Of a stretch of DNA of 64,000 nt, positions 22,310-62,755 are shown one piece after another (position 1 is the stretch's first letter; the number at the start of each line of letters is the position of its first letter). The stretch comes from Muricea muricata (lineage: Eukaryota; Cnidaria; Anthozoa; Malacalcyonacea; Plexauridae). Where the stretch lies: the NCBI GenBank assembly GCA_963855995.1, contig OY979720.1:15706430-15770429 (forward strand), read 5' to 3'. Both the position numbers and the translations under genes were made by a program. Below the pieces are notes generated by a model. The model was not told the origin of the DNA. It ran no database searches and saw nothing but the letters and a program-made list of their open reading frames with translations.

Positions 22310-22497
22310 AAAAAGGCAATTTAATTTTAATTTTGTGAATTTCGATTACAAAACATGCCTTGGACTGTCGACCAATTGATTTCGTCAGGCGATTACAGAC
22401 TTGTGAGAGGAGGGGGGTAGCCTAATTACTAAAATGTAGTGAAAAAAGGACTTTCCATCTAATGGTGGGAGCAGGTTGGCGGGAACACTGGAGAATA

Positions 22498-22932
22498 AAG
22501 GTCCTGTCACAATGCAATTTTTCTTGCAACTTGAAATGCAATTCTACTATTGGGAGATGTAAAATTGGCAAATGCAAGTTTCCATCACAGTTTGCTGGGG
22601 TTTTTTAACGTACCAAACATTTGTCACAAATTTACTTAAGAGTAGATTTTCCCTGTAGCAAAAAAGATGGCAAATGTCGATTTTACCAGAGTGCATGGTA
22701 GTCTGAAATTGTTTAAAAAGGCAAATTAACGTCTTTTAAAGAACAGACAGAAGACAATAGGTTATTTTCACACTTGTGTTAAAATTTCAATCCAGTAGCT
22801 TTGTTTCTTGTCATCTTTTCCCACGTATTCTTTCTTGATACCTGCAATGCATTCTGGTAAAATCGACATGTCGCCATCTTTTTTGCTACGGTGAATGCAA
22901 GGAAAAGTGCACCGTGTGACAGGGCCTTAAGG
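22498..22932. mobile_element. MITE with GGnCCTGTCACA termini (left-arm copy)
   Basis: This is the arm partner of 48138-48572. Ends carry AAAGGTCCTGTCACAATGCA and its diverged complement GTGTGACAGGGCCTT, with an internal GTAGCAAAAAAGATGGC word. A further partial end lies at 22985-23010. Confidence 0.65.
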
Positions 22933-25900
22933 GTAAGAGGTGGATAGAGAAGGAGACGGAGCAGTTAGTTACAAGTGCAAGAAAAATTGTACCGTGTGAC
23001 AGGGCCTTGAGGGTGGGAGGTGGATAGGAGGAGACGGAGCAGGATGTGGGAGTCGTGCAAGGTCGGGGAGGTTAAAAAAGAACAAGGAATGTTATGTTTT
23101 TAATGCCTTTTAGACTTTTCTTGAGGCAATTAAAATTCAAACTGTCAAATCCAAACACTGTACAGAATGGCCGACTTTACGTGGTCTTTAGTTTTTACAC
23201 AACCACTTGCATTGTTATCTTTTGCAGTTTGTTTACCATTTCAGTTATCTATCTTCAATAGAATTCTTTGAAATTTGTTTGTAGATCGACAAAATGCTTA
23301 ACCTCCTCTCAACAACTGGCAGATTATGAAAAATGAAATTGTTAAAGGTATTGGAATATTGCATGTACAATATTGAATATGGGACAATTTGGGACAGTAT
23401 AATTTTGGACATGACGGTTTCATTCTCACCTAATTTGACGATTATTTTGTGGGTACACATACCGTGGAATCTCATGTGCTCCAGAAGCATTTTAATCTTA
23501 GAAAAAGTCAAATAATGATGAACTGTGTTTTAAAAGAAAGTTAGAATCTTATTTGGTTCAAATCAATTGAATTATGGCCCAAGAGTTCATGAAAACACAT
23601 ACAAAAGGCTTTCTTAAAAAACTGAAATATCAAATCTAGCAATTTTATATGTTATGCCTCTAAACAACACAATTCTGTTTCTAAAAATTGGTACCCTACT
23701 AGACCTATATGCATGATTATACTAATTTGGACATATTTATTTTTACCCATTAAAATATAAATTTGTGTTTAATCATTCGTGTTTGTCATTATTTGACTTT
23801 GTAATGTTGGTTAAACATAAGAAGATTGAGGTGACTTTGCCAGAAACAAAAACATCCATTATTATACTAAAATTTCAATATATGTAGCAATTAAAACTAA
23901 CCACAGGAAATATATTTCTACTTTTTAATTGAAATGTTTCTGTTATATGCACTATATCATATTTTTGATAAAAAATTACAACACCTATGTTATTTCCTGG
24001 TTTACTATCTCAATCATCTTTTGTTTAAGCTGGCTTTGAGTGTTCATTTGAAAGTTTGGAAAGTTCATTTGAAAATCACAATAGTTCTCAATGTTATATT
24101 GGACCCTTTAAAGTTAAAAAAATACTTTGTAATATTTTATACTACTGGTAATTTATCTTAGATACAGACTTTGTGATTTTGTACTAGAATGTTGACTTTC
24201 AAACTTTAAGATGAACTACTTATTAAGGACAAAATAAGCTAGCATATTGTCTTTTGTTTACAAAGTGGAACTTGTTTGGAATTGAGATGAACTGATGCAG
24301 TTGTTCTTTAACTTTATCAATTAATTACATATCTTAAATGAAAAAGAAAACCACAACTTGCCAAATAAATTCTGTGGGCTCTTTTTATTAGCAAAGAGAA
24401 GATGTGGCAGATGTAAGAATTTAAGAGTAAAAAAGTTTCCTTGGACTAAAAAAATTGACAGTATTCCAGATTTTCTAGATAAACAAGCAGTACAGATGTC
24501 GGCCAATAATAAGTATAAGTAACTACAATTTTTAATTTTAAAAGTTTTCTATTGATGCCTGGATACAGTAAATACTTTACCAGAGTTCTTCGTATTACAT
24601 CGACTTGAAAAAGTTTTAAGTCACATGAAGCTTTTAGTTGATACTATGCAATTTCAAATTTTACAGACTTCTTAATTAACATGCCAAATTTACCTTGTTG
24701 AACATAAGGTCTTTCCTGAGAAAAAGTAAAACTGTCTGGCATTATATGGAGTAGAATAATTTAAATTAGTTTGAGACTTTGATTTGATAACAATTTTGAT
24801 TTGTACTATTTACAATACAAGTGACCGGGTTGTATCGGATATACAAACCCAAGCTGAAGGCGAGATATCTGACATACACAGATGCGAATGTTGTAAATGG
24901 CTTGTGAAACTCGTCAATTTTATACATCAGATCTATAGCAAAGTGATTTTGAAAATACCGATTCTGTAAGATGAGAAAATGATTTCTTTTGTGTTTCCTG
25001 TATGATTTATTACTTTATAAGTTTCTTAATTAAAATTACAACATATTGCCTACTGGAACTTTTTATATTGTTTGGTTGTGGTGAATTTGTATTTTGGCAA
25101 TTGAAATATTTCTGAATTTGTATGTGCATTTCCTTTGCTTCAGTTCAAGTTTACATTTCAAATATTCCACTTTGTAATACTTGCGTGGTAATAATAATAT
25201 AAGAAAACAGGTTTACATGGCTCTTGAATATAGTCTTTTCAACAAGTAAGTAAAGATGAATTTATACTTCAAAGAGATATGTTCCTAACCTGACAATGGT
25301 ACCTTCCAAAAAGACTAAATTTAAATTGATTCTTCGAATAAATTTTTTACTTTTCAATCCAAGATCAATCTAAGTTATGTATTTCTACTTTTATTTTGGT
25401 CTCTTTAACACTGAAACTATCAATTGTATATAAAGCAACTTCACTATCGAGTGACTTCATTAGTTGCTGGGCAAAGCCAAAGCATTGATTTTTCGGCTGT
25501 TTTCAATGAAAAATAGAATTTTGCCCAAAGTTATCTCAAATAAATTATCACAATTTGAACAAAAAGCTTCTGTTCTTGTGCCCACCAGAAAAATGAGATG
25601 TCTGAGACTTTCTTTGTATTTTTTTGCGAAAAATAGATCGCATGCACTGTTATGCAAAGAAAAGTGTAAGAGATTGGTTTCTGAAAAATGTCGTGCTACA
25701 CACAATATTCTAAAAATGCTTGGTTTTTATTCTATGTATTTTTGAATTTTTTGTTAAAAAAAATAAAGGTAGCAATGTTTAGTGCATTTCACATTGTCAG
25801 GTTAGAAACGCAATAAGAAAAATGTGGCTCCGAACATTACAGCTTGGTCAATTTGGAATTTATAAAAAAATCGTTTCTTCGTTGTTTTTCGACGTTTTGA

Positions 25901-27609
25901 AGGGTTGTTTCGAGTACAAAAAAGTATTTTTAGGAAGAATTATGTGCCCACGTTACATGTCTCAAAGCCATCAAAATTCGTTGGTAATTCGTGCATGTAT
26001 TTTTTCTGACTTATAAAAGCACAATTGATTAAAAATAATATTTTTCTTTTGACAAAAATACCTTTCTTCTGTGAGGCTGGCTGTATTTGAAAAAGCGTTG
26101 GTCAACGCTCCGCCAAAACTCGTGGGTTTTCTCCGGGTACTCCGGTTCTTCCCACTGGGAGAGTTGACAGGGTAGTTACATATGGTTATAAAAATGTGAC
26201 TAACTTTTGAAAACCTTTCTACTTAGACTTGTTAAGCCTTCTCGTCATCTCTATCAGTTGCATGTTTTGAGCCACATGTTTTTCTTTGTAATTGTGAAAC
26301 AACTCGTTATATGCTGGGTAAACCTTTGCAAAACTCTCAAAATTTATCACTTCAAGTTGTTTCATTGTTATAATATATTTTGAAGTATAAACATTTACTT
26401 ACGTTGAAAAGACCCAAGTTTTTTAGGACTTTGTTCATTCACTTGTGTTATTGTTCTCTCTGCCATGTTCTGTTTTCTTCTGTTGTTATTTTAATAAGTA
26501 CAATGTGTGGTAGTTAATCTCTTTTTATTGTTATTCAAATTGTATGTAATCTTTACAAATTTTTTCAATAAATTGTTTACAAAATTTACTTGTGACCCCT
26601 TTTTAATTAAAAATTCAATTCCCATGGGAATTGAGAAATTGAATAAAAAAAATCCCCCTACCCCGGCCAGCTCCCCAAGTGCCACTTCCACCTAAGTAGA
26701 AGTACTTATACATGTAGTACAAGTACTTCTACTTATTCACGGTGGAAGTAGCACTCGGAGAACTGGCCGGGGTAGCCGGCAAAGAGAAGACCAACTTTGC
26801 AAGTGCTAATACAATTGCTAAGTTGATCTTCCCTAGAGAGCAGCCGCGCGTACCTAACAAATTAAAACAACAAACGTTAGTGACTTAAGTACTTAGCATG
26901 CAAATTTGATTCCCAAAGCCAAAATGTCAAGTGCCCCCCGCTGATCCTACCAACTGCCTACCTGCCTCAGTTCTAAGCTGTCTTCCTCAGTTCTAAGCTC
27001 CTGCATTCCATTCGTTACCTTCACTTTCCTCACCATCGCACAGTCACTCACAGCTGATAAACCCGCATGCACCACCACCACCCCGACTGCCACCCAATTT
27101 CGAAAATTAAAAGAGTTAAAATTTCGGTAAAGTATGCATTTTAAATGCAATTTATTTGGATATTTTAGATCAAACGTAAACAGAAAAAGCTCGTACATAA
27201 AAACAGGTGAGAATTCTATTTAAAATTTGCTTGCAAAATATAAAACTTAATTCGCATTTTTCTTAGTTAATAGTATAGATCAATTTAGTTGATGTTGAAA
27301 CCTACTCTTAACTGTTTTGTTAGAAGTGACGACAGATTTTGGTTTTTAAGCATACTTTCAAAAATTTTAATTCCTTTAATAAACCTAATCCCATGCAACT
27401 TACACACGGCGCACACCCTCGCAGTCCATACATTTAGCTAATAAATTACGTTATAAACAAAAAAGCAAAATAAAAAGATAAATTACGTTATCTCTAGCTA
27501 CTTAAACCCACTTAGACTGAGTTTTTGATTGAATTTTCAAACGTAAAACCTTAGCTGAATGGGCATGGGCTTTTCGTTGTGTTAACTGTTCCGGAGTAAA
27601 TATAAACCT

Positions 27610-27851
27610 GGGGCCGGTTGTATCAAAGGCGTTTAGCTTAAACGGTGGATAAGTGAAATTTAAAAATCAGTTTTACACCTAGTACGGAACCGAAATTATG
27701 AGTTGAAATAGAATAAATATTTAGTTTTATATATAATTGTTCTTCTCAGGTCAAATAACTTCAGCTGGTTTGTTTATACAACATGGAAACGTGTTTCATA
27801 TTTTTGACTTATCCACCGTTTAAGCTAAACGCCTTTGATACAACCGGCCCC
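27610..27851. mobile_element. MITE with GGGGCCGGTTGTATCAAAGG ends (left arm)
   Basis: Inverted termini of about 45 bp begin GGGGCCGGTTGTATCAAAGG and continue GCGTTTAGCTTAAACGGTGG on both sides. The partner copy in the right arm is at 43219-43460. The third body copy near 49960 lacks the insert, which gives an empty site. The target duplication is too short to define. Confidence 0.8.
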
Positions 27852-29489
27852 TGATACTTACCAAAGTCCAAGGCTGGGTCAAATAAGCATGAGAATTAGG
27901 CAAAAATAAAAAGCAATTGAAACTCAACAGATTCACTAAAGTTGTTTTTTTTTTTGGCAACTTATATCCTTAAGTGTAGATGACATGCAATTTTTAATGC
28001 CGTAATTCTCACACTTATTTAACCGAAACGCCTTCATTTGCATGGTACCTCGCAGCTGCTCTCAAACCACCTTCGTAATTTGCTTTAGTGTACACAAACA
28101 ATGACTTCATTGTTCCTGCTTACCAAAACAAATCTGAAAGCACCAAGATACTTATCATATTAATAATCAAAGAGGATTCGCATTATGCAGTAATTACCAT
28201 AAACGGACGCATCACCATTGAAACAAAGCATGCTGTATTCCCATGGGAATTTAAAATGCACAAAAAAATATAATGATCCTACTGATTTGCATGGATGTAT
28301 GAACCAAATTAGCTAAGAAACAAAGAAATGATATATTCCCTTGGGAATTTAATGTAGCAAAAAGATGGCGGGTGTTGATTTTACCAGAATGCCTTGCGGT
28401 CTGAAATCGTTTAAAAACTTAAGGTAAATTAACCTCGTTTGAGGAACAGACAGATAGGTTATTTTGTCACTTGTGTTAAAATTCCGTCCATTAGCTTATG
28501 TTAAATATCATTTCACTGCTATTCTTGATTGATACCCGCATTAAATTCTGGTAAAATCGACAAGCCACCATTTGTTTTGCTACGGTGAATTGGAATACAA
28601 GTCAAATTTTCTCGCTTTTTAACCAGAGAACACATTCTTTAAAGGTAGAACGACGGAATTGATCGTTTGCAATCGACGCCATCTTTGTTGACGTTTGAAA
28701 CACATGGCAACCACAAAGTATCTATTCATTACATCTGATCCTATCGAGCCATACATCTTTAAAGTATCATTCATAATACGCTAAAACTAACGATGAAATA
28801 GTAAATTGACACAAGTGTTTCGCTGTAAACAGCTGAAGTAATCTGCAGAGTCAACCAAGATGGCGCCCAATCACACGAAATGACGTCATGTGCAAACCAA
28901 GAATAGTGACAAAATGCATCAACTATAATTTAGTGGCATTATTACGAAACTTATTTTTGTAAAACGTTCAATCCTACATGTTATTTTGTTTTGTTTTTAG
29001 AAATATCCAAATCCAAATGTTAGAGACGAAATTTCCAGGCGTTAAGGTATTGTTTCTTTAAAAAATATTGTCGACATTTACCATATTTTTACCTGTTTTT
29101 TGACTCGAAAATTGACTGCCAAACTCCTAGATATTCTATTTAATTATTTTGTTGAATGTATTTGATATCAATGTTATTTCAATCCAATTTTTTTCACTTA
29201 ATTTGCTGTCTTTTCTTTTTCATTAACGAGAAATATCTATTAAATCCTCTTTGATCCCTCAATGATAAGTATCTTGTTTTCTACTAACTTGCACATTACC
29301 ACTACTTTCTATTACAATGTCGTGTCTTCTCATTCTTGTGGATTGTTGTTTTGTGGGTCTTGTCGTCCAGGATCGTTCATTCTTTTCTTTTCTTGTGCGT
29401 TTTTTTCACATCCCATCACCCTTTGCAATAGTAGAAAGAATTAAGTCATGAGATGATATTTACGAATAATTTATAAACTATAACATGAT

Positions 29490-29622
29490 AAGTTTCTTGT
29501 ACGTTTGCATGGTGAATACAATATACTTATTAAGCTTTGTGGAAACACCACGTAAATTTATTATTGCAATAATAAATTTACGTGGTGTTTCCACAAAGCT
29601 TAATAAGTAAACTATAACATAT
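29490..29622. mobile_element. Left-arm-only insertion with an 84 bp perfect palindrome
   Basis: About 134 bp present here are missing from the right arm. Positions 29525-29608 form a perfect 42+42 palindrome with no spacer (centre ...TTATTATTG|CAATAATAA...). The insert is flanked by a direct duplication of TAAACTATAACAT (about 29472 and 29609). The duplicated flank indicates insertion into the left arm, not loss from the right. Confidence 0.7.
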
Positions 29623-29987
29623 TAAGCACTTATTGGATGAGATTTTTGTGATATGCGAAATGATCAATGTCGAGGTAAGAGTTATCAGCCGAGCCGAAGG
29701 CGAGTCAGATAACTCTTACCAAGACATTGATAATTTTGCATATCACAAAAACCGAATCCGATAATTGCTTTATTATACATTGTAAGTCTTTTTCCTCGAG
29801 CAATTGACGAATTTCGCCTTCGGAAGAGCTTAAAAAGCAAGATGCCATAACATGAAACAGAAAATATCGAAAAAATGTTGTCGCCATGCCAACCATTGAT
29901 GCCAACGAATACCGCATACTGTAATAATCTGCACCGTAGGCTCAACATGCAGATAACTCAGTTATCTGCTAGCAGATAACTGAGCCA

Positions 29988-30213
29988 TAGAATAAGAATA
30001 CATAGAAGGGCCACTCGCGTCGGAGCCTTTGGAGTTTTTGAAGCCGCGCATGTCGCATTACGCACGTTATTAGCATTTTCTCAGCCAGTCAATTGCATTT
30101 TCTGGCCAATAGGAATGCTGAACTGGCTGGTGGCAGTCAGTAAACTGCATAAACATAGTGTGACATGTTGCACTGCTGAGTGGCCCTTCTATGTATTCTT
30201 ATTGTATGACTGA
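29988..30213. mobile_element. Left-arm-only MITE (TIR AAGGGCCACTC type)
   Basis: Inverted ends of about 30 bp contain ATAAGAATACATAGAAGGGC on the left and its complement on the right. ACTGAG is repeated at both junctions. The right arm has the uninterrupted sequence near 41225-41240. A diverged relative lies at 51452-51679. Confidence 0.75.
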
Positions 30214-30296
30214 GTTATCTGCAGATTGTGTGATAGTCGCATTTATCTGCATACAACTGACCAATCACAACTCATAAAACAACTGCAATGTATAGT

Positions 30297-30657
30297 AATT
30301 AACACTTATTGACTGAGACCGAGGGAAACAGTATGTTTTGTGGACCAGAGACTGTCGATGTCGAGGGTCCACAAAACATACTGCTTTCCCGAGGTCTCAG
30401 TCAATAAGTATTTTATTATATACTGAGTGCCAAAAGAGAAGAAAAGTACCACAAATCAATCAAACATGTGTAAAAAGGATTACCTTTTACCTGACATGGC
30501 TACGTGAGGCTTTGTGGATTTGTTGTCTACCGGTGAATAAAAGTAATGTCCACCGCTTAGCTACGTTGCCAAGGAGACAATAGAATTTCTCCACTATCAC
30601 GTGATACGTTCTTAACCAATAAGAAACAGGAATAAATGAACTTTGACACTCAGTATA
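30297..30657. mobile_element. Left-arm-only insertion with internal hairpin
   Basis: About 365 bp lie between sequence that is contiguous in the right arm near 41140. The 5' part folds (CTGAGACCGAGGGAAACAGT at 30323 against ACTGCTTTCCCGAGGTCTCA near 30400). The ends carry weak inverted words (CACTTATTGACTGAG / CACTCAGTATATT). No coding potential. Confidence 0.55.
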
Positions 30658-32390
30658 TTATAAAACAGTATTAATTAGGCCGGCCAAATTATTGTGTAAG
30701 CTGTTAATATGAAATTTTTTTTATTAAAATCTCGAGAATCATTAATAAATCGTGAGCAAAACACAAAAGAAAATCATAGCCGTGAAGGAGTCTTTATTTC
30801 TCACACGCACACAACTTGCAGCTACCCTAATTTATGAATTTAGATTAAAATATCTCGAGAATTAAACAACACGTAAGGAATGTGTAAATTCTTAAAGCTC
30901 TTTCGAACAATAAAAATTAATATCTCGCACTAATCTCTCTCAAAAGCTCTCTCAAATTTATTGCCGATATCTCTTTGAGAATTACTGTGCACGTGAAATG
31001 TAACTTATATCAAAACTAGCTTACTTCAAGCTGTTTGGGAATCAAGATTTTACGTGTCAACGAGATCAAATATGAATCTAAGATGGCAGACAGCGCATTA
31101 AATTTCTATCTTTACGACCAACTCCCCAACGAAAGGCTTTAATTCGCTCGAAAGTCGAATTTTGTTTTTTTTTATTGTTTCAGGTAGTGAAAGATCCTGT
31201 GTGCTTTTTACAGTACTACCGACACTAGCAACGTTAGTGCGAGATGTTAATTTTTATTGAAACAAAAGCTGAACTGCTAAAAAAATGGAAACGACAAGAT
31301 AAAATAAAAAAACTTACTTTCACTCTATCTTTGGATCTTCTTGGCTTCGGTTGTTCTCGTTTCATCATGCTGTTTATGGTTTCATCTGGTTGGCGCACTC
31401 TCTTCATGGAGCATCAAGGCGGTCCAGTAGGTAACTAGCTCACTCGTGTCCAGTCAACCAACATAAAATAAGGAGAAAATTAATGTTACAAAATATTTTA
31501 GAATATAGGACACTAAGCTTTAATTGAATTGACTTTAACAAACCGTACATTGTGATAGTATTTGCATCTTAACATCTGATGGAGACGGCTTGTGATTTAC
31601 TTCTTATGTCGATATGAATTCTTTCCCATCTTGTTGCATCATTAGTTGATGGTTGTTGTATTCACTTTTTACTTGGCATTCTTTGAAAAAAAAATTACGA
31701 TGTTCAGAAAACTGTTTACAAGATAAGCAAAGAAAACTACGTTCACAAGCATTAGAGAGGACTAAGTAATTATAATAGGCGTGACAGGTCACAGAGGTTA
31801 GTCGACGAAGAAACTCATGGACAAATTCCCGGCATGATGATACCCCGATAGCAAGAAATACAGCAAGTGTAGAACGTGTACGTGTGAGCTTAAACTGTAT
31901 GTATGCAACTCCAAGAAAAGCGCAACACAAAATGGCGGAATTTAAAGACATTTCTGGTGTCATTTCCAGTTCCCTAACTTTCGCGGACAAATATATTTAT
32001 ATATTTTTCTCAAATTTTTTTGAAGTAAATCTAGATAGATTTTGTGAATAAACAAATTAAAAAAAGTATTGCCCACGTTAGGAAACTAGAACGGGCGCCC
32101 AAGAATGCCCACAATTTCTCCAATCTGGATTATATTTATTGATTGCGCAAATGACTGATAAAAAATAAGAGAGTAATAAAATACCAAATGGTTTCCTCTT
32201 CAAGATAGTGTCATACATGCGCGCGGCATTTCGGGATATTTGGGAAAACTCGTGTTGAAGTTGAACCTAAGGCAACATGCCAAGTACATGGATGACGCTA
32301 TCCTACTCAGGAAACTATTTAGTAATTGTCTTACAAAATGATGACAGTGAAACACAAGTCAACGCCACGGCATTTAAATTTCTCGTGTAG

Positions 32391-32590
32391 GATTGTTTGA
32401 TCCTGCACAGTAATAGCCAAGTGGCGCAATCGTCAGAGCAAACGCCTATCACATGTGAGGTCGTGGGTTCAATCCTTACTTCAGACTCGTGACACCCATG
32501 TGAGGAGTTAGTCAGTCGTGGGTTTATTCCGGGTACTCCGGTTTGCAAATGTTGACTGGATGGTTAAAATTGTAAAATATCAGTAATCAC
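32391..32590 (+). mobile_element. tRNA-derived SINE (left arm copy)
   Basis: The head has an A-box-like GTGGCGCAATCGTCAGAGC (32421) and a B-box GGGTTCAATCC (32465), 44 bases apart as in tRNA genes. It is followed by a tRNA-unrelated part with TCCGGGTACTCCGGTTTGC. It does not fold as a full functional tRNA, and the same unit occurs three times in the window. Transcription by RNA polymerase III is expected for this class. Confidence 0.7.
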
Positions 32591-33370
32591 CGGAACACGG
32601 GTACTTAACTAAACTGCTGACGATGAGGCGGAACTCATAATGAATTAATGAAAATGTGTTTCACTGTAGTTATCATATAATGTAATTGCCAAGCTGAATG
32701 AATAATTCTCCAGTAACTACGTCATATGAATAACTTACAATTATGAGAGTAGTGGGGGGGGGGGGGCAGCATAAAGATTGAAGTAGTGTCAAGGAAGGGG
32801 TACTACCCTGACGGGTACTAGGCGAAGAAGTAGAGTAAACAGGAGGAAGAAAATTAAATTGGAGTAAATAAGGGGGATTGGGGTAAAGAAGGGGAGAAGC
32901 AGGATAAAGAAACCAGTGGAAGGGGGTGCTATCCTGGAAGGAGTACCCGGGAAAGAAGAGGGTGAACAGGAGGAAAAGTAGATTGGAGTACAGAAAGGGG
33001 AAATTAAACGGATCAGGAAATTCAGACTTGCAATTCAAATGAAAGGCAGCTCATTGGTCATGTAAACACTCGTTAAATCATGGTTCTCGCTTGCCTTTAG
33101 CTTGGAATCATCTTTGAATTTGAACTGAAAGTCTGAATTTGCATGTTTCTTGTATAGAGTGCAGTGTATCAGAACAGAAGAGGTTTTGAAGAAAAAGAAA
33201 GAAAGAATAAAAGTAAGTTAAAATTTGTAAAGAATAATGAAGAAACTATTGGTACAGCACTTGATACATGATGATAATCATCATTATAAACTCTCTATTA
33301 ATCCGGGGGGGGGGGTATAATAGAGAATTTGCAATGATAGTAAGTATATTGTAATATTTGGGTTTTTACC

Positions 33371-33455
33371 ACTAAATCCTCTTGAAAGTTCTTTTTGGCT
33401 GTGGCTTCTCTCATCACAGTTGTCTGTGCTTGTCTTGCAAAATCTCTGGAATATC
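33371..33455 (-). pseudogene. 85 nt exon-like segment (left arm partner of 38347)
   Basis: This is the reverse-complement partner of 38347-38431 with the same splice signals. It is described there. Confidence 0.4.
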
Positions 33456-34192
33456 TATAACGTGAAGGTCAATATTTAAGATCAGAAAAATAGAAACCGT
33501 AAAATAGAAAGAAATTTAAATCGTGGCGAATACTTTTTACGGTCTTGCTGGCATGACAAAAAGAGAGTATAGATTTATAAGATCATGTTGATTTATCCTT
33601 TATCTGAACTATATTTAACTTAGATTTTAAAATAGATTTCACCCTGGTAAGCAGACCGAATGGGTTTTCAAACAAGATAACATTTAATGACTAAAACGTG
33701 CACAGAATAGTTAGAGAATGCTTACATGTCGAATAAAAATCCAATACTTTTAATGTCCAACTACACAATAGCGATTTTCGTTGCATTTCTAGACTGGAGA
33801 AGAAGACGACGCCATTTTGATTTTGATTTCTCCCGACAACGGCAGATTTGTCTTCGCAATTTTTTTCCATTTCTTCGTCGTTTTAGCTCCAATTTGCTCG
33901 TTGTGTTTCTTTCGTACCTTCCTCGCCATTTCCGTACAATCAATGGACATTTATACTCAAGATTAAGACTGTATTGAGACTTTCAAAATGTTCGTCAGGA
34001 GACATAAAAATCGAAGCTTCTTCTTCGGGTTGCAGAAGCAAATGACGTCAGACGACCTTTGTCCGCCAGCAAATACCCGTATGTATAACATTCAATGATC
34101 TTTTTAGGAAGCTGAAAATCAGTTTTTATTGCGCGAACGAAATGTTTTTGCCATTATTTCTTACTCAGGTCTTTGTTCTACTACTTTACTTC

Positions 34193-37100: not shown

Positions 37101-37612
37101 TGTAGCTTTAAAGTGTAGTGGTTTAGTGGTGTCTTGAAGTCTTTTCGTCGTTATTTCTCGATGAAGACAACTTGTCTTCTTGAACGAAGGGAAATAACGA
37201 CGAGAAGTCTTCAATGCACCAACCCTACAGGTCTGTCCCCAAAGGTCAAGTTAATGAAATTTGCTTAAATATTAGTTAACAACACTAGGAAAATAACGTT
37301 TGCCTCCTTGGCCTCGCGGTACTGCCTAGTGTTTTCCTGCACTCCACGCCCAGCTTTGAATTCAGTTTTGGGTGGATCGAGCACCGATCAGAATTAAATT
37401 CTTACCAAACTCAGTTGAACTGGACCGGTCCTCGATCCACCCAAAATCGAAGTCAAGACAGTTGTCTTTACCTCTCGGCCACGGAGGGAAAGATATTTGC
37501 CAATGAAAGCTTTAACGAGTCTTTCCTTGTTCATCAGCATCCAAATAAAAAAAATTGCAAAATTGTCCCTTACAGGCGTTTCTTTTGGCAAGTTACCTAA
37601 GTAAACATGAAG
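34193..37612. mobile_element. Foldback element FB2 at the turnaround
   Basis: Ends are set by homology to FB1: GAAACGCCTGTAAGGGAAC at the left and its complement at the right. Each half is about 1.42 kb and holds the same ordered blocks as FB1, including the tRNA-like TGGCCGAGAGGTAAAG (34321; complement near 37470), the GACGAGAAGTCTTC stem (34600; 37200) and CTTGATATAGGAGCCATATA (35031; about 36760). In each half an internal block of about 270 bp is tandemly duplicated (35140-35400 and 35405-35560). Because the arms continue outward, element and inverted-duplication symmetry coincide. Confidence 0.75.
35614..36188. other. Unpaired spacer between the giant arms
   Basis: This 575 bp does not pair with itself. 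Positions 35850-36130 are instead a direct-orientation diverged copy of 36750-37020 (shared CTATATCAAGGACACTGAAC and CGATCAAGAAAGAAACGAC), so it is leftover foldback-element sequence. A pre-existing asymmetric loop here means the turnaround is not a simple hairpin tip. Confidence 0.7.
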
Positions 37613-38346
37613 TAAAGTAGCAGAAGAAAGACCTGAGTAAGAAATAATGGCAAAAACACTTCGTTCGCGCAATAAAAACCGATTTTCAGCTTCCTAAAAA
37701 GATCATTGAATGTTATACATACGGGTATTTGCTGGCGGACAAAGGTCGTCTGACGTCATTTGCTTCTGCAACCCGAAGAAGAAGCTTCGATTTTTATGTC
37801 TCCTGACGAACATTTTGAAAGTCTCAATACAGTCTTAATCTTGAGTATAAATGTCCATTGGTTGTACGGAAATGGCGAGGAAGGTACGAAAGAAACACAA
37901 CGAGCAAATTGGAGCTGAAACGACGAAGAAATGGAAAAAAATTGCGAAGACAAATCTGCCGTTGTCGGGAGAAATCAAAATCAAAATGGCGTCGTCTTCT
38001 TCTCCAGTCTAGAAATGCAACGAAAATCGCTATTGTGTAGTTGGACATTAAAAGTATTGGATTTTTATTCGACATGTAAGCATTCTCTAACTATTCTGTG
38101 CACGTTTTAGTCATTAAATGTTATCTTGTTTGAAAACCCATTCGGTCTGCTTACCAGGGTGAAATCTATTTTAAAATCTAAGTTAAATATAGTTCAGATA
38201 AAGGATAAATCAACATGATCTTATAAATCTATACTCTCTTTTTGTCATGCCAGCAAGACCGTAAAAAGTATTCGCCACGATTTAAATTTCTTTCTATTTT
38301 ACGGTTTCTATTTTTCTAATCTTAAATATTGACCTTCACGTTATAG

Positions 38347-38431
38347 ATATTCCAGAGATTTTGCAAGACAAGCACAGACAACTGTGATGAGAGAAGCCAC
38401 AGCCAAAAAGAACTTTCAAGAGGATTTAGTG
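38347..38431 (+). pseudogene. 85 nt exon-like segment in the element body
   Basis: It is bounded by TTATAG| and AGTG|GTAAAA. The open phase gives YSRDFARQAQTT followed by MREATAKKNFQEDLV. The diverged copy at 13266-13350 has the same length and phase and a similar basic translation ending QKDLE. This is typical of an exon once under coding constraint. An upstream donor (38075) and a downstream open segment ending at 40482 may belong to the same gene. Family not recognised. It could be a captured host gene exon. Confidence 0.45.
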
Positions 38432-39211
38432 GTAAAAACCCAAATATTACAATATACTTACTATCATTGCAAATTCTCTATTATACCCCCCCCCCCCGGA
38501 TTAATAGAGAGTTTATAATGATGATCATCATGTATCAAGTGCTGTACCAATAGTTTCTTCATTATTCTTTACAAATTTTAACTTACTTTTATTCTTTCTT
38601 TCTTTTTCTTCAAAACCTCTTCTGTTCTGATACACTGCACTCTATACAAGAAACATGCAAATTCAGACTTTCAGTTCAAATTCAAAGATGATTCCAAGCT
38701 AAAGGCAAGCGAGAACCATGATTTAACGAGTGTTTACATGACCAATGAGCTGCCTTTCATTTGAATTGCAAGTCTGAATTTCCTGATCCGTTTAATTTCC
38801 CCTTTCTGTACTCCAATCTACTTTTCCTCCTGTTCACCCTCTTCTTTCCCGGGTACTCCTTCCAGGATAGCACCCCCTTCCACTGGTTTCTTTATCCTGC
38901 TTCTCCCCTTCTTTACCCCAATCCCCCTTATTTACTCCAATTTAATTTTCTTCCTCCTGTTTACTCTACTTCTTCGCCTAGTACCCGTCAGGGTAGTACC
39001 CCTTCCTTGACACTACTTCAATCTTTATGCTGCCCCCCCCCCCCACTACTCTCATAATTGTAAATTATTCATATGACGTAGTTACTGGAGAATTATTCAT
39101 TCAGCTTGGCAATTACATTATATGATAACTACAGTGAACACACATTTTCATTAATTCATTATGAGTTCCGCCTCATCGTCAGCAGTTTAGTTAAGTACCC
39201 GTGTTCCGGTG

Positions 39212-39412
39212 ATTACTGATATTTTACAATTTTAACCATCCAGTCAACATTCGCAAACCGGAGTACCCGGGATAAACCCACGACTGACTAACTCCTCACA
39301 TGGGTGTCACGAGTCTGAAGTAAGGATTGAACCCACGACCTCACATGTGATAGGCGTTTGCTCTGACGATTGCGCCACTTGGCTATTACTGTGCAGGATC
39401 AAACAATCCTAC
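39212..39412 (-). mobile_element. tRNA-derived SINE (right arm copy)
   Basis: This is the reverse-complement partner of 32391-32590: GGATTGAACCC (B box complement) at 39326 and GACGATTGCGCCAC (A box complement) at 39365. Confidence 0.7.
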
Positions 39413-40395
39413 ACGAGAAATTTAAATGCCGTGGCGTTGACTTGTGTTTCACTGTCATCATTTTGTAAGACAATTACTAAATAGTTTCCTGAGCAGGATA
39501 GCGTCATCCATGTACTTGGCATGTTGCGTTAGGTTCAACTTCAACATGAGTTTTCCCAAATATCCCGAAATGCCGCGCGCATGTATGACACTATCTTGAA
39601 GAGGAAACCATTTGGTATTTTATTACTCTCTTATTTTTTATCAGTCATTTGCGCAATCAATAAATATAATCCAGATTGGAGAAATTGTGGGCATTCTTGG
39701 GCGCCCGTTCTAGTTTCCTAACGTGGGCAATACTTTTTTCAATTTGTTTATTCACAAAATCCATCTAGATTTACTTCAAAAAAATTTGAGAAAAATATAT
39801 AAATATATTTGTCCGCGAAGGTTAGGGAACTGGAAATGACACCAGAAATGTCTTTAAATTCCGCCATTTTGTGTTGCGCTTTTCTTGGAGTTGCATAGAT
39901 ACAGTTTAAGCTTACACGTACACGTTCTACACTTGCTGTACTTCTTGCTATCGGAATATCATCATGCCGGGAATTTGTCCATGAGTTTCTTCGTCGACTA
40001 ACCTCTGTGACCTGTCACGCCTATTATAATTACTTAGTCCTCTCTAATGCTTGTGAACGTAGTTTTCTTTGCTTATCTTGTAAACAGTTTTCTGAACATC
40101 GTAATTTTTTTTTCAAAGAATGCCAAGTAAAAAGTGAATACAACAACCATCAACTAATGACGCAACAAGATGGGAAAGAATTCATATCGACATAAGAAGT
40201 AAATCACAAGCCGTCTCCATCAGATGTTAAGATGCAAATACTATCACAATGTACGGTTTGTTAAAGTCAATTTCAATTAACGCTTAGTGTCCTATATTCT
40301 AAAATATTTTGTAACATTAATTTTCTCCTTATTTTATGTTGGTTGACTGGACAAGAGTGAGCTAGTTACCTACTGGACCGGCGTGATGTTCCATG

Positions 40396-40482
40396 AAGAG
40401 AGTGCGCCAACCAGATGAAACCATAAACAGCATGATGAAACGAGAACAACCGAAGCCAAGAAGATCCAAAGATAGAGTGAAA
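40396..40482 (+). pseudogene. Basic open segment ending at a consensus donor
   Basis: 29 codons, KRVRQPDETINSMMKREQ and then a Lys/Pro/Arg-rich stretch, end exactly at AAA|GTAAGT. The counterpart at about 15200-15288 keeps the same donor but has indels that break the frame. The acceptor is unclear. It is probably a further exon of the gene represented by 38347-38431; function unknown. Confidence 0.35.
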
Positions 40483-43218
40483 GTAAGTTTTTTGATTTTA
40501 TCTTGTCGTTTCTATTTTCTTTAGCAGTTCAGCTTTCGTTTCAATAAAAATTAACATCTCGCACTAACGTTGCTAGTGTTGGCAGTGCTGTAAAAAGCAC
40601 ACAGGATCTTTCACTACATTAAACAATAAAAAAACAAAATTCGACTTTCGAGCGAATTAAAGCCTTTCGTTGGGGAGTTGGTCGTAAAGATAGAAATTTA
40701 ATGCGCTGTCTGCCATCTTAGATTCATATTTGATCTCGTTGACACGTAAAATCTTAATTCCCAAACAACTTGAAGTAAGCTAGTTTTGATAGAAGTTACA
40801 TTTCACCTGCAAAGTAATAGTTGAAGAGATATTGGTAATAAATTTGAGAGAGCTTTTGAGAGAGATTAGTGCGAGATATTAATTTTTATTGTTCGAAAGA
40901 GCTTTAAGAATTTACACATTCCTTACGTGTTGTTTAATTCTCGAGATATTTTGATTTAAAATCATAAATTAGGGTAGCTGCAAGTTGTGTGCGTGTGAGA
41001 AATAAAGACTCCTTCACGGCTATGATTTTCTTTTGTGTTTTGTTCACGATTTACTAATGATTCTCGAGATTTTAATAAAAAAATTTCATATTAACAGCTT
41101 ACACAATAATTTGGCCGGCCTAATTAATAAACTATTTTATTATACATTGCAGTTGTTTTATGCGTTGTGATTGATCAGTTGTATGCAGATAAATGCGACT
41201 ATCACACAATCTGCAGATAACTCAGTTATCTGCTAGCAGATAACTGAGTTATCTGGATGTTGAGCCTACGGTGCAGATTATTACAGTATGCGGTATTCGT
41301 TGGCATCAATGGTTGGCATGGCAACAACATTTTTTCGATATTTTCTGTTTCATGTTATGGCATCTTCCTTTTTAAGCTCTTCCGAGGGCGAAATGCGTCA
41401 ATTGCTCGAGGAAAAAGACTTAAAATGTATAATAAAGCAATTATCGGATTCGGTTTTTGTGATATGCAAAATTATCAATCTCTCGGTAAGAGTTATCTGA
41501 CTCGCCTTCGGCTCGGCTGATAACTCTTACCTCGACATTGATAATTCCGCATATCACAAAAACCTCATCCAATAATTGTTTAATATGTTATAGTTTATAA
41601 ATTACTCGTAACTATCATCTCATGATTTAATTCTTTCTACTATTGCAAAGGGTGATGGGATGTGAAAAAAACGCACAAGAAAAGAAAAGAATGAACGATC
41701 CTGGACGACAAGACCCACAAAACAACAATCCACAAGAATGAGAAGACACGACATTGTAATAGAAAGTAGTGGTAATGTGCAAGTTAGTAGAAAACAAGAT
41801 ACTTATCATTGAGGGATCAAAGAGGATTTAATAGATATTTCTCGTTAATGAAAAAGAAAAGACAGCAAATTAAGTGAAAAAAATTGGATTGAAATAACAT
41901 TGATATCAAATACATTCAACAAAATAATTAAATAGAATATCTAGGAGTTTGGCAGTCAATTTTCGAGTCAAAAAACAGGTAAAAATATGGTAAATGTCGA
42001 CAATATTTTTTAAAGAAACAATACCTTAACGCCTGGAAATTTCGTCTCTAACATTTGGATTTGGATATTTCTAAAAACAAAACAAAATAACATGTAGGAT
42101 TGAACGTTTTACAAAAATAAGTTTCGTAATAATGCCACTAAATTATAGTTGATGCATTTTGTCACTATTCTTGGTTTGCACATGACGTCATTTCGTGTGA
42201 TTGGGCGCCATCTTGGTTGACTCTGCAGATTACTTCAGCTGTTTACAGCGAAACACTTGTGTCAATTTACTATTTCATCGTTAGTTTTAGCGTATTATGA
42301 ATGATACTTTAAAGATGTATGGCTCGATAGGATCAGATATAATGAATAGATACTTTGTGGTTGCCATGTGTTTCAAACGTCAACAAAGATGGCGTCGATT
42401 GCAAACGATCAATTCCGTCGTTCTACCTTTAAAGAATGTGTTCTCTGGTTAAAAAGCGAGAAAATTTGACTTGTATTCCAATTCACCGTAGCAAAACAAA
42501 TGGTGGCATGTCGATTTTACCAGAATTTAATGCGGGTATCAATCAAGAATAGCAGTGAAATGATATTTAACATAAGCTAATGGACGGAATTTTAACACAA
42601 GTGACAAAATAACCTATCTGTCTGTTCCTCAAACGAGGTTAATTTACCTTAAGTTTTTAAACGATTTCAGACCGCAAGGCATTCTGGTAAAATCAACACC
42701 CGCCATCTTTTTGCTACATTAAATTCCCAAGGGAATATATCATTTCTTTGTTTCTTAGCTAATTTGGTTCATACATCCATGCAAATCAGTAGGATCATTA
42801 TATTTTTTTGTGCATTTTAAATTCCCATGGGAATACAGCATGCTTTGTTTCAATGGTGATGCGTCCGTTTATGGTAATTACTGCATAATGCGAATCCTCT
42901 TTGATTATTAATATGATAAGTATCTTGGTGTTTTCAGATTTGTTTTGGTAAGCAGGAACAATGAAGTCATTGTTTGTGTACACTAAAGCAAATTACGAAG
43001 GTGGTTTGAGAGCAGCTGCGAGGTACCATGCAAATGAAGGCGTTTCGGTTAAATAAGTGTGAGAATTACGGCATTAAAAATTGCATGTCATCTACACTTA
43101 AGGATATAAGTTGCCAAAAAAAAAACAACTTTAGTGAATCTGTTGAGTTTCAATTGCTTTTTATTTTTGCCTAATTCTCATGCTTATTTGACCCAGCCTT
43201 GGACTTTGGTAAGTATCA

Positions 43219-43460
43219 GGGGCCGGTTGTATCAAAGGCGTTTAGCTTAAACGGTGGATAAGTCAAAAATATGAAACACGTTTCCATGTTGTATAAACAA
43301 ACCAGCTGAAGTTATTTGACCTGAGAAGAACAATTATATATAAAACTAAATATTTATTCTATTTCAACTCATAATTTCGGTTCCGTACTAGGTGTAAAAC
43401 TGATTTTTAAATTTCACTTATCCACCGTTTAAGCTAAACGCCTTTGATACAACCGGCCCC
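43219..43460. mobile_element. MITE with GGGGCCGGTTGTATCAAAGG ends (right arm)
   Basis: This is the arm partner of 27610-27851, with the same inverted termini. The third body copy is empty at this site (near 49960, AAGTATTAGG). The insertion therefore happened after the third copy separated but before the two arms were formed. Confidence 0.8.
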
Positions 43461-46400
43461 AGGTTTATATTTACTCCGGAACAGTTAACACAACGAAAAG
43501 CCCATGCCCATTCAGCTAAGGTTTTACGTTTGAAAATTCAATCAAAAACTCAGTCTAAGTGGGTTTAAGTAGCTAGAGATAACGTAATTTATCTTTTTAT
43601 TTTGCTTTTTTGTTTATAACGTAATTTATTAGCTAAATGTATGGACTGCGAGGGTGTGCGCCGTGTGTAAGTTGCATGGGATTAGGTTTATTAAAGGAAT
43701 TAAAATTTTTGAAAGTATGCTTAAAAACCAAAATCTGTCGTCACTTCTAACAAAACAGTTAAGAGTAGGTTTCAACATCAACTAAATTGATCTATACTAT
43801 TAACTAAGAAAAATGCGAATTAAGTTTTATATTTTGCAAGCAAATTTTAAATAGAATTCTCACCTGTTTTTATGTACGAGCTTTTTCTGTTTACGTTTGA
43901 TCTAAAATATCCAAATAAATTGCATTTAAAATGCATACTTTACCGAAATTTTAACTCTTTTAATTTTCGAAATTGGGTGGCAGTCGGGGTGGTGGTGGTG
44001 CATGCGGGTTTATCAGCTGTGAGTGACTGTGCGATGGTGAGGAAAGTGAAGGTAACGAATGGAATGCAGGAGCTTAGAACTGAGGAAGACAGCTTAGAAC
44101 TGAGGCAGGTAGGCAGTTGGTAGGATCAGCGGGGGGCACTTGACATTTTGGCTTTGGGAATCAAATTTGCATGCTAAGTACTTAAGTCACTAACGTTTGT
44201 TGTTTTAATTTGTTAGGTACGCGCGGCTGCTCTCTAGGGAAGATCAACTTAGCAATTGTATTAGCACTTGCAAAGTTGGTCTTCTCTTTGCCGGCTACCC
44301 CGGCCAGTTCTCCGAGTGCTACTTCCACCGTGAATAAGTAGAAGTACTTGTACTACATGTATAAGTACTTCTACTTAGGTGGAAGTGGCACTTGGGGAGC
44401 TGGCCGGGGTAGGGGGATTTTTTTTATTCAATTTCTCAATTCCCATGGGAATTGAATTTTTAATTAAAAAGGGGTCACAAGTAAATTTTGTAAACAATTT
44501 ATTGAAAAAATTTGTAAAGATTACATACAATTTGAATAACAATAAAAAGAGATTAACTACCACACATTGTACTTATTAAAATAACAACAGAAGAAAACAG
44601 AACATGGCAGAGAGAACAATAACACAAGTGAATGAACAAAGTCCTAAAAAACTTGGGTCTTTTCAACGTAAGTAAATGTTTATACTTCAAAATATATTAT
44701 AACAATGAAACAACTTGAAGTGATAAATTTTGAGAGTTTTGCAAAGGTTTACCCAGCATATAACGAGTTGTTTCACAATTACAAAGAAAAACATGTGGCT
44801 CAAAACATGCAACTGATAGAGATGACGAGAAGGCTTAACAAGTCTAAGTAGAAAGGTTTTCAAAAGTTAGTCACATTTTTATAACCATATGTAACTACCC
44901 TGTCAACTCTCCCAGTGGGAAGAACCGGAGTACCCGGAGAAAACCCACGAGTTTTGGCGGAGCGTTGACCAACGCTTTTTCAAATACAGCCAGCCTCACA
45001 GAAGAAAGGTATTTTTGTCAAAAGAAAAATATTATTTTTAATCAATTGTGCTTTTATAAGTCAGAAAAAATACATGCACGAATTACCAACGAATTTTGAT
45101 GGCTTTGAGACATGTAACGTGGGCACATAATTCTTCCTAAAAATACTTTTTTGTACTCGAAACAACCCTTCAAAACGTCGAAAAACAACGAAGAAACGAT
45201 TTTTTATAAATTCCAAATTGACCAAGCTGTAATGTTCGGAGCCACATTTTTCTTATTGCGTTTCTAACCTGACAATGTGAAATGCACTAAACATTGCTAC
45301 CTTTATTTTTTTTAACAAAAAATTCAAAAATACATAGAATAAAAACCAAGCATTTTTAGAATATTGTGTGTAGCACGACATTTTTCAGAAACCAATCTCT
45401 TACACTTTTCTTTGCATAACAGTGCATGCAATCTATTTTTCGCAAAAAAATACAAAGAAAGTCTCAGACATCTCATTTTTCTGGTGGGCACAAGAACAGA
45501 AGCTTTTTGTTCAAATTGTGATAATTTATTTGAGATAACTTTAGGCAAAATTCTATTTTTCATTGAAAACAGCCGAAAAATCAATGCTTTGGCTTTGCCC
45601 AGCAACTAATGAAGTCACTCGATAGTGAAGTTGCTTTATATACAATTGATAGTTTCAGTGTTAAAGAGACCAAAATAAAAGTAGAAATACATAACTTAGA
45701 TTGATCTTGGATTGAAAAGTAAAAAATTTATTCGAAGAATCAATTTAAATTTAGTCTTTTTGGAAGGTACCATTGTCAGGTTAGGAACATATCTCTTTGA
45801 AGTATAAATTCATCTTTACTTACTTGTTGAAAAGACTATATTCAAGAGCCATGTAAACCTGTTTTCTTATATTATTATTACCACGCAAGTATTACAAAGT
45901 GGAATATTTGAAATGTAAACTTGAACTGAAGCAAAGGAAATGCACATACAAATTCAGAAATATTTCAATTGCCAAAATACAAATTCACCACAACCAAACA
46001 ATATAAAAAGTTCCAGTAGGCAATATGTTGTAATTTTAATTAAGAAACTTATAAAGTAATAAATCATACAGGAAACACAAAAGAAATCATTTTCTCATCT
46101 TACAGAATCGGTATTTTCAAAATCACTTTGCTATAGATCTGATGTATAAAATTGACGAGTTTCACAAGCCATTTACAACATTCGCATCTGTGTATGTCAG
46201 ATATCTCGCCTTCAGCTTGGGTTTGTATATCCGATACAACCCGGTCACTTGTATTGTAAATAGTACAAATCAAAATTGTTATCAAATCAAAGTCTCAAAC
46301 TAATTTAAATTATTCTACTCCATATAATGCCAGACAGTTTTACTTTTTCTCAGGAAAGACCTTATGTTCAACAAGGTAAATTTGGCATGTTAATTAAGAA

Positions 46401-48137
46401 GTCTGTAAAATTTGAAATTGCATAGTATCAACTAAAAGCTTCATGTTACTTAAAACTTTTTCAAGTCGATGTAATACGAAGAACTCTGGTAAAGTATTTA
46501 CTGTATCCAGGCATCAATAGAAAACTTTTAAAATTAAAAATTGTAGTTACTTATACTTATTATTGGCCAACATCTGTACTGCTTGTTTATCTAGAAAATC
46601 TGGAATACTGTCAATTTTTTTAGTCCAAGGAAACTTTTTTACTCTTAAATTCTTACATCCGCCACATCTTTTCTTTGCTAATAAAAAGAGCCCACAGAAT
46701 TTATTTGGCAAGTTGTGGTTTTCTTTTTCATTTCAGATATGTAATTAATTGATAAAGTTAAAGAACAACTGCATCAGTTCATCTCAATTCCAAACAAGTT
46801 CCACTTTGTAAACAAAAGACAATATGCTAGCTTATTTTGTCCTCAATAAGTAGTTCATCTTAAAGTTTGAAAGTCAACATTCTAGTACAAAATCACAAAG
46901 TCTGTATCTAAGATAAATTACCAGTAGTATAAAATATTACAAAGTATTTTTTTAACTTTAAAGGGTCCAATATAACATTGAGAACTATTGTGATTTTCAA
47001 ATGAACTTTCCAAACTTTCAAATGAACACTCAAAGCCAGCTTAAACAAAAGATGATTGAGATAGTAAACCAGGAAATAACATAGGTGTTGTAATTTTTTA
47101 TCAAAAATATGATATAGTGCATATAACAGAAACATTTCAATTAAAAAGTAGAAATATATTTCCTGTGGTTAGTTTTAATTGCTATATATATTGAAATTTT
47201 AGTATAATAATGGATGTTTTTGTTTCTGGCAAAGTCACCTCAATCTCCTTATGTTTAACCAACATTACAAAGTCAAATAATGACAAACACGAATGATTAA
47301 ACACAAATTTATATTTTAATGGGTAAAAATAAATATGTCCAAATTAGTATAATCATGCATATAGGTCTAGTAGGGTACCAATTTTTAGAAACAGAATTGT
47401 GTTGTTTAGAGGCATAACATATAAAATTGCTAGATTTGATATTTCAGTTTTTTAAGAAAGCCTTTTGTATGTGTTTTCATGAACTCTTGGGCCATAATTC
47501 AATTGATTTGAACCAAATAAGATTCTAACTTTCTTTTAAAACACAGTTCATCATTATTTGACTTTTTCTAAGATTAAAATGCTTCTGGAGCACATGAGAT
47601 TCCACGGTATGTGTACCCACAAAATAATCGTCAAATTAGGTGAGAATGAAACCGTCATGTCCAAAATTATACTGTCCCAAATTGTCCCATATTCAATATT
47701 GTACATGCAATATTCCAATACCTTTAACAATTTCATTTTTCATAATCTGCCAGTTGTTGAGAGGAGGTTAAGCATTTTGTCGATCTACAAACAAATTTCA
47801 AAGAATTCTATTGAAGATAGATAACTGAAATGGTAAACAAACTGCAAAAGATAACAATGCAAGTGGTTGTGTAAAAACTAAAGACCACGTAAAGTCGGCC
47901 ATTCTGTACAGTGTTTGGATTTGACAGTTTGAATTTTAATTGCCTCAAGAAAAGTCTAAAAGGCATTAAAAACATAACATTCCTTGTTCTTTTTTAACAT
48001 CCCGACCTTGCACGACTCCCACATCCTGCTCCGTCTCCTCCTATCCACCTCCCACCCTCAAGGCCCTGTCACACGGTGCAATTTTTCTTGCACTTGTAAC
48101 TAACTGCTCCGTCTCCTTCTCTATCCACCTCTTACCC

Positions 48138-48572
48138 TTAAGGCCCTGTCACACAGTGCACTTTTCCTTGCATTCACCGTAGCAAAAAAGATGGCGACAT
48201 GTCGATTTTACCAGAATGCATTGCAGGTATCAAGAAAGAATACGTGGGAAAAGATGACAAGAAGCAAAGCTACTGGATTGAAATTTTAACACAAGTGTGA
48301 AAATAACCTATTGTCTTCTGTCTGTTCTTCAAAAGACGTTAATTTGCCTTTTTAAACAATTTCAGACTGCCATGCACTCTGGTAAAATCGACATTTGCCA
48401 TCTTTTTTGCTACAGGGAAAATCTACTCTTAAGTAAATTTGTGACAAATGTTTGGTACGTTAAAAAACCCCAGCAAACTGTGATGGAAACTTGCATTTGC
48501 CAATTTTACATCTCCCAATAGTAGAATTGCATTTCAAGTTGCAAGAAAAATTGCATTGTGACAGGACCTTTA
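48138..48572. mobile_element. MITE with GGnCCTGTCACA termini (right arm)
   Basis: AAGGCCCTGTCACACAGTGC at the left faces GCATTGTGACAGGACCTT at the right, and both ends lead inward to TTGCA-rich words. About 435 bp with no transposase. It resembles the CCCTGTCACAC-type hAT non-autonomous families, by TIR only. Confidence 0.65.
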
Positions 48573-48758
48573 TTCTCCAGTGTTCCCGCCAACCTGCTCC
48601 CACCATTAGATGGAAAGTCCTTTTTTCACTACATTTTAGTAATTAGGCTACCCCCCTCCTCTCACAAGTCTGTAATCGCCTGACGAAATCAATTGGTCGA
48701 CAGTCCAAGGCATGTTTTGTGATCGAAATTCACAAAATTAAAATTAAATTGCCTTTTT

Positions 48759-49475
48759 TCAATAAATTTGAACCAGAACCAACTCTATACATAGAACTGT
48801 CTCAGCATACTTTCTTCGACAATCTCAACAATTCAAGACCTCATTCAGTTTCTATAGCGGATTTCATGGTATTATTATCGAACCAACTTCAACTGAAAAC
48901 GGTAGCCTTAATCTTACATGCGACCATAGCCATGCTTGGAAAGCACAAACTTACAATACTCGAAAATTGTACTTATTTCCAGTCTGATCTCTCAAAAATC
49001 GATCTCTATGCACAATCTAAGTACTTTGCTACAAATAATGATAGAAAATAAAGCATATTACCTTAAAACAAAGTTAGGATGCATGAAAATTTAGAGGACT
49101 TTCAAAGAGCAAAATCTTCGAGCTAGAGAAAAATTTTGAAAAAATAGTATTCGGAAAATCTTCGAGCAGCGACGGAAGCCGACGAATTCCGAGGAACGCC
49201 GAAACTACCACTTTGTGTCGACATGCTCCGAGCAAGTTCCTTGTTCCTGATTCAGAAGAAGCTGTATTACAGATCAGATATATACAGATAGGGAACTCGC
49301 ACTCAATAACCTCAATTTTTGTGTCCCCGTGCTCACGTCATTCCACGCGCCACGCAAATTGCTCTGGCAAGTGTCGTTCGTCGTGTTTTCAGTCAAAAGC
49401 ATAGGAAAAACGCCGTTCGAAAGTACAAAAATGAATATTTTTGCGAAGTTCCTTCACCGATCTTCATTTTGTATG
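48759..49475. other. Outer tail of the body copy, then unassigned sequence
   Basis: Positions 48980-49070 match 56340-56450 (shared AAAGCATNTTACCTT), so the body extends to about 49.1 kb. A plus-strand open frame of 110 codons (48719-49051) crosses the arm boundary. It has no recognisable domain. 49.1-49.47 kb shows nothing recognisable. Confidence 0.45.
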
Positions 49476-49877
49476 TATGTAGATATTTCAGTAGAATTTG
49501 CGTTTGATTCTTGTGTAGAAATTTCTAAATTTCCTTAAAAGTAGGAATAAACCAGAAAATGACGGAAACACGCTCTCAAAACTTCACCGCGACACATCGC
49601 TGGAATTTGTCGTTTTAAAGCATTTTGCATGAGAATCTTTGCACGTAAAACCTTCTTGCGGTTTAGATGTTCTAGCATGCACGTTTAAATGCGTGTTTTG
49701 TTGACACATTTCGCTAGAAATTGAGTTTAAACGCCGTGTTTAGGTCGGCTCACGCGGTTTGTGCCAGCGGTATCACCCATGAGCGCTGCACCGACTTCTG
49801 ACACCGAAAAAAAATAAAAAAAAAAAAAAAACAGAAACGGGGCGAATTTAAAACTCCGCCTCGCCTACGGCAGGCGG
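49476..49877 (+). repeat. Direct repeat of 21915-22309
   Basis: It begins at TGTAGATATTTCAGTAGAAT (the left copy starts at 21921) and ends with CGCCTACGGCAGGCGGAGTA and A's, as the left copy does. The pair flanks the whole giant inverted repeat in the same orientation. This copy lacks the left copy's minisatellite part. Confidence 0.8.
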
Positions 49878-62747: not shown

Positions 62748-62755
62748 CTAGAAGA

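Follow-up and report, generated by a model that had tools for sequence, protein, structure and literature searches.

How do the two arms of a 26-kb inverted repeat come to be nearly identical when related sequence on either side of them is strongly diverged? This question is raised by a locus of Muricea muricata (Cnidaria, Anthozoa, Malacalcyonacea, Plexauridae) that we analyzed in a 64,000-nucleotide stretch of contig OY979720.1 (assembly GCA_963855995.1, positions 15,706,430 to 15,770,429 of the forward strand). We refer to this whole stretch as the window, and all coordinates are positions within it. The inverted repeat, which we call palindrome P, occupies 22310-48758. On balance we favor, with moderate confidence, the explanation that P is an apparently non-coding palindrome maintained by gene conversion between its arms and nested in an older relative, P', which it entered through recombination between copies of a repeat that we call R1.

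Arms of the palindrome

Palindrome P consists of two arms and a short spacer.

22310..35613, minus strand: left arm of palindrome P (13,304 bp; inner end read by eye)
35614..36188, no strand: spacer of palindrome P (575 bp)
36189..48758, plus strand: right arm of palindrome P (12,570 bp; inner end read by eye)

An earlier note, made from the sequence alone, had proposed an inverted repeat with near-identical arms at this position. Self-BLAST upheld it as genuine. Positions 22310-29486 are the reverse complement of 48758-41585 (99.64% identity over 7,177 columns), 29608-29984 of 41597-41221 (96.6%), and 30656-35621 of 41144-36183 (98.3%). The base composition is AT-rich. An inverted repeat so long and so similar is not a chance match. 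Paired coordinates were said to sum to constants that change in steps, and we reproduced these sums to within a few bases (71068-71071, 71205, and 71800-71804). The arms also proved to be collinear and to differ by left-arm insertions and rare substitutions, as the note had described. Alignment of the arms (left arm 22310-35612) contained 110 substitutions in 12,565 aligned columns (0.875%) and 12 small indels of 1-3 bp each. The three large length differences are all extra sequence in the left arm. Within the spacer, 35813-36130 is a third copy, at 84%, of a repeat found in the inner arms.

29474..29607, no strand: 134-bp left-arm extra with a long hairpin inside and a 13-bp direct repeat at its edges
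29979..30208, no strand: 230-bp left-arm extra resembling a miniature inverted-repeat transposable element (MITE-like), with inverted ends and a 6-bp direct repeat (ACTGAG); the right arm has one empty site
30299..30661, no strand: 363-bp left-arm extra with two inverted-repeat units, recognized by eye

Direct repeats are thus present at the edges of two of the three extras, and a search of the edges of the 363-bp extra found none. A relative of the MITE-like extra lies at 51455-51676. Sequence that is present in one arm only indicates that the arms have had separate histories, which disfavors a simple read-through (missed-adapter) artefact.

We found no open reading frame (ORF) of at least 150 amino acids in the arms, either among the listed ORFs or in a stop-to-stop scan; the only one in the window is at 2526-3080. 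A Pfam scan of 200 ORFs of at least 58 amino acids, taken from outside the left arm because left-arm ORFs duplicate those of the right arm, yielded no convincing family that could be traced to the arms. In the right-half set of 104 ORFs, the EGF and PAN matches trace to 57.7, 60.5, and 62.5 kb, which is outside the arms. Six weak families in the right-half set (E 0.012-0.041) and three in the other set (E 0.016-0.028) have no ORF assigned to them. Codon periodicity was absent when the arm was compared with the older copy described below, with p under 0.05 in 1 of 90 windows. No RNA genes reached Rfam gathering scores, and a scan with bacterial settings found no transfer RNA. With no long ORF, no convincing traced family, and no codon periodicity, we rejected coding arms, and the arms are apparently non-coding. 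No host function is indicated for the structure, which we would read as selfish or neutral.

Uneven divergence between the arms

The differences between the arms are not spread evenly. There were 23 substitutions in 7,161 columns in the outer segment (22310-29473), 63 in 2,457 columns in the middle segment (29608-32660), and 23 in 2,858 columns in the inner segment (32750-35612). The middle segment therefore differs at 2.56% of columns, as against 47 of 10,108 columns elsewhere. It is the most diverged long stretch, and it holds or borders all three of the large insertions. At the other extreme are long runs in which the arms do not differ by any substitution.

25640..28139, no strand: longest substitution-free run, 2,498 columns, paired with right arm 42932-45429 and containing 1-bp indels at 25864 and 27945

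When the substitutions were shuffled along the alignment, the longest identical run averaged 594 columns and none of 5,000 shuffles reached 2,498. The variance per 500 columns was 34.2, compared with 4.6 in the shuffles, and again none of the 5,000 reached the observed value. A second identical run of 965 columns (34291-35255) lies in the inner core.

This unevenness disfavors a single recent duplication with no later exchange, which predicts even divergence. By contrast, patches are expected from serial conversion tracts. We propose that arm-to-arm (non-allelic) gene conversion would keep the arms alike tract by tract and would be least effective around the left-arm insertions. Hindrance of conversion by the heterology of these insertions would fit the position of the most diverged stretch.

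An older copy interrupted by the palindrome

Both sides of P contain sequence related to its right arm, and repeats of another kind lie at the junctions.

9774..10678, minus strand: P'L, the decayed inverted left core of the older copy, pieces of which mirror 11480-12507
11460..20297, plus strand: first part of the older copy U', matching right arm 35734-43108 in the same orientation, with gaps
20298..21905, plus strand: X, between the U' break and R1, holding a 31-bp minisatellite (about 20956-21329)
21906..22309, plus strand: R1, a repeat of about 400 bp that ends in a hairpin beside an A-run, at the outer end of the left arm
48759..49465, plus strand: Y, 707 bp outside the right arm
49466..49880, plus strand: R1', a second R1 copy, about 88% identical and with the same 3' end, where U' resumes
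49881..54787, plus strand: second part of the older copy U', matching right arm about 43123-47800 in the same orientation, with gaps

The match of U' to the arm ends at 43108 in its first part and picks up again at 43123 or 43133 in its second, a gap of 14-24 bp, and the arm sequence at this site (43.11-43.13 kb) carries an A-run. Since the match stops and resumes at one arm site, the two flanking parts are one older copy that has been interrupted. Inside it, in order, are X, R1, palindrome P, Y, and R1'. Strongly diverged copies of the body of the arm had been noted at 12.5-20.3 and 49.9-56.5 kb. These copies exist, but they are parts of a single interrupted copy and the right-hand limit is not reached. 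The match there is clear to about 54.7-54.8 kb, and a weak collinear signal continues to about 55.6 kb. Alignment of the outer 950 bp of the arm (47800-48754) with 54613-55582 gave a very weak score of 568, compared with a highest score of 565 in 200 shuffles. For the arm window 48000-48600 against U', the score was reached by 4 of 200 shuffles. Two windows wholly beyond 47.9 kb gave one collinear match (377 compared with 352) and one match elsewhere (292 compared with 272; 20 shuffles each). An initial reading, that the last 950 bp of the arm are missing from U', is no longer firm given this weak collinear signal. In a gap-tolerant local alignment, 44000-44600 is 94% identical to 50520-51153 over 585 columns, so this part of U' is closer to the arm than the rest is; later exchange or constraint are possible reasons.

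Like P, the older copy carries an inverted core, and we compared the inner core across the arms of both. Within the older copy the two arms share 75.3% identity, the older right arm and the right arm of P share 82.6%, and the two arms of P agree at 98.8% of the 1,200 columns compared. There were 150 differences unique to the older left arm, 43 unique to the older right arm, and 76 unique to P. Under a rough clock, these distances place the split between left and right arms before the split between P and P', so that the near-identity of the arms of P would be secondary. This gives moderate support to an inverted core older than the P/P' split, given that the clock is rough and that a fast left branch may mislead. 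It suggests that the palindrome is old and that its arms have been re-homogenized. P and P' form a small local repeat family in which the older member (9.8-20.3 kb and 49.9-54.8 kb) hosts the younger one.

With U' as the outgroup, 36 of the 110 substitutions between the arms of P could be compared. Twelve are derived in the right arm, 16 are derived in the left arm, and 8 could not be assigned; derived changes are therefore present in both arms. Dense clusters of arm-to-arm differences, several of them at adjacent bases, occur at 34121-34290 and 30963-30992. We considered small inversions or conversion from a foreign donor as the source of these islands and kept neither explanation; no clear donor emerged among the local copies. 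In most comparisons of the islands with these copies, the right arm slightly outscored the left (for example, 63 compared with 50 when aligned with P'L).

R1 marks two of the four junctions. The 3' ends of R1 and R1' fall on the same base; each is a hairpin with an A-run after it, and because of this A-run the junctions are exact only to about 5 bp. Plain insertion of R1 into A-runs would leave a mirror of Y to the left of R1 and U' to the left of R1', which is not what is seen. Y did not match the adjoining left flank in either orientation, and X did not match Y (the direct score was reached by 36 of 100 shuffles and the inverted score by 9 of 100). The left neighbors of the two R1 copies look exchanged, as recombination between R1 copies would produce. 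Such an entry would also place R1 at the outer end of the left arm and again where the host copy resumes. The younger P may thus have entered the older P' by recombination between R1 copies, for example through integration of a circle or ectopic exchange. A circle carrying P, Y, and R1 could have integrated at an R1 already sitting in U'. Under this model, the outer end of the left arm would be only the point of recombination, and the source palindrome may be longer.

Competing explanations and known systems

Several points weigh against conversion between the arms and R1-mediated entry. The comparison covers one assembled sequence, and patchy divergence would also be expected if that sequence were a mosaic of two alleles that differ in age. 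The 15-difference island at 34121-34290 is not near any large insertion. GC-biased conversion was not seen when the arm was compared with U' (212 compared with 222, p=0.67). The arms of the older core share a 20-bp stretch that is absent from P, which could mean that they are sister arms. The 1.6 kb of X between U' and R1 is not accounted for by R1 recombination alone. Finally, a search for a direct repeat flanking the whole insert found none, and none flush around P or R1' was found; R1 itself is flanked by a repeat of only up to 4 A's.

An assembly artefact could have produced the palindrome if a heterozygous diploid carried two alleles of a single segment and these were joined head to head by the assembler or in a chimeric read. 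The 0.875% divergence of the arms and the presence or absence of MITE-like insertions could suit two alleles of an outbred animal. However, in a fold-back the left flank should recur beyond the right arm as a nearly identical inverted copy, and the adjoining 2.0 kb has no inverted match there (score 786, which 72 of 100 shuffles attained). The inverted matches that lie further out are only diverged ones (53-74% identity), mostly EGF-exon-like and near 4-9 and 59.6-59.9 kb, with the exception of a 91-bp repeat at 87%. An artefact would also have to accommodate the 575-bp spacer at the axis, two sides that continue one interrupted older copy, and an inverted core in that copy. We consider it unlikely.

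We are slightly more doubtful of a very large foldback-type DNA transposon, in which P, bounded by 13-kb terminal inverted repeats, would have transposed as one unit into an older copy of the same element. The palindromic layout and the nested older relative suit such an element, as does the absence of detected genes if it is non-autonomous. The weak collinear signal, as high a score as which was found in 0 of 200 shuffles, may carry the older copy to the outer end of the arm. Yet the outer 950 bp matches U' very weakly at best, the clear match in this single other copy stopping about 950 bp short of the arm end. We found no direct repeat or target-site duplication at 22310/48758 (the longest shared word within 25 bp on each side is 3 bp), and the left outer end coincides with R1. 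No transposase family was found among the 200 ORFs scanned outside the left arm, although a non-autonomous copy would lack one. We give similarly little credence to the idea that the palindrome is a gene-free spreading unit that copies itself into relatives by R1 recombination, perhaps as a circle, with conversion resetting its arms and leaving nested copies of different ages.

The earlier note left a choice between a recent inverted duplication and conversion. The first of these, a single duplication too recent for its arms to have diverged, would explain their high overall identity and collinear layout. It seems improbable to us because even divergence was rejected by the shuffles and because the split between P and P' seems to postdate the inverted core. 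Arm-to-arm conversion, the second, is favored by the sequence comparisons but not proved. Least probable by our estimate is that the flanking parts are separate fragments and that a tandem array, rearranged step by step, gave rise to the palindrome where it now lies, as the many related fragments and two R1 copies nearby might suggest, since two parts meeting within 14-24 bp of one position in a 12.6-kb arm would be an unlikely coincidence.

The remainder of the window contains gene-like fragments and repeats.

4429-4912, 5651-5965, and 57707-57934, plus strand: EGF- and PAN-like ORFs (Pfam)
60477-60830 and 62455-62772, minus strand: EGF- and PAN-like ORFs (Pfam; the minus-strand PAN is below the Pfam cut-off)
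8935-9089, plus strand, and 59619-59828, minus strand: EGF-/PAN-like places, by DNA similarity only
2148-2432, plus strand: reverse-transcriptase fragment (RVT_1; E 0.00014, below the Pfam curated cut-off)

The EGF- and PAN-like ORFs and the reverse-transcriptase fragment at the window edges point to animal DNA. The palindrome may lie between related genes that point toward one another. By eye, 1358-1639 also looks PAN-like, and the scan counted further EGF and PAN members. The ORFs beside the reverse-transcriptase fragment (2023-2301 and 2514-3077) had no Pfam match. Self-palindromic elements occur at 15899-16481 (95%) and 63236-63616 (84%), and part of the first recurs at 56762-56853. Short-unit tandem repeats of the CCAACA type and the ACCACCTTAG type lie at 8400-8595 and 61161-61443. 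Searches with three patterns in prokaryotic and viral contig collections gave no match, which carries little weight because these collections represent other organism groups.

The best-known long conserved palindromes bear genes and lie on sex chromosomes, and preservation of those genes is often invoked to explain them. P resembles the large palindromes of mammalian X and Y chromosomes in having long inverted arms that are about 99% alike. In the parts of the sources drawn on here, the mammalian arms are about 99% alike or more and are read as maintained by conversion (PMC3723533 for human Y P6; PMC8981503 for the X), and GC-biased conversion is reported for the X palindromes (PMC8981503). 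P differs in that no genes were found in its arms, its identity is lower and patchy, no GC bias was detected, and conversion is proposed from one sequence rather than shown in a population. Galileo, a foldback-like transposon, also has long terminal inverted repeats around a middle; in the portion of the source used, the second-longest is 1,575 bp and target duplications are marked (PMC4168063). P has 13-kb arms, and neither a flanking direct repeat nor a transposase was found for it. A literature search on nuclear palindromes of corals or anemones returned none among the titles listed; it covered titles and the starts of abstracts, and we make no claim of absence from print.

The closest description is that of inverted repeats in Caenorhabditis, where the inverted arrangement is preserved better than the sequence itself and has been allowed to decay in one species (PMC1803023). 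As in P, the host is an invertebrate, arms are more alike within a copy than between relatives, and one relative is degenerating. The Caenorhabditis repeats involve pairs of genes whose intergenic arms are short (160 bp and 124 bp in two examples from the same account, PMC1803023), whereas P has 13-kb arms without detected genes and the comparison here is between two copies at one locus rather than between species. A patchy palindrome with no detected genes, lying beside a decayed relative, would be a clean place to ask whether conversion needs a selective reason, and how heterologous insertions hinder conversion between arms. Structures of this kind are already known, and P is an instructive new instance, probably maintained by conversion and with a proposed insertion marked by R1.

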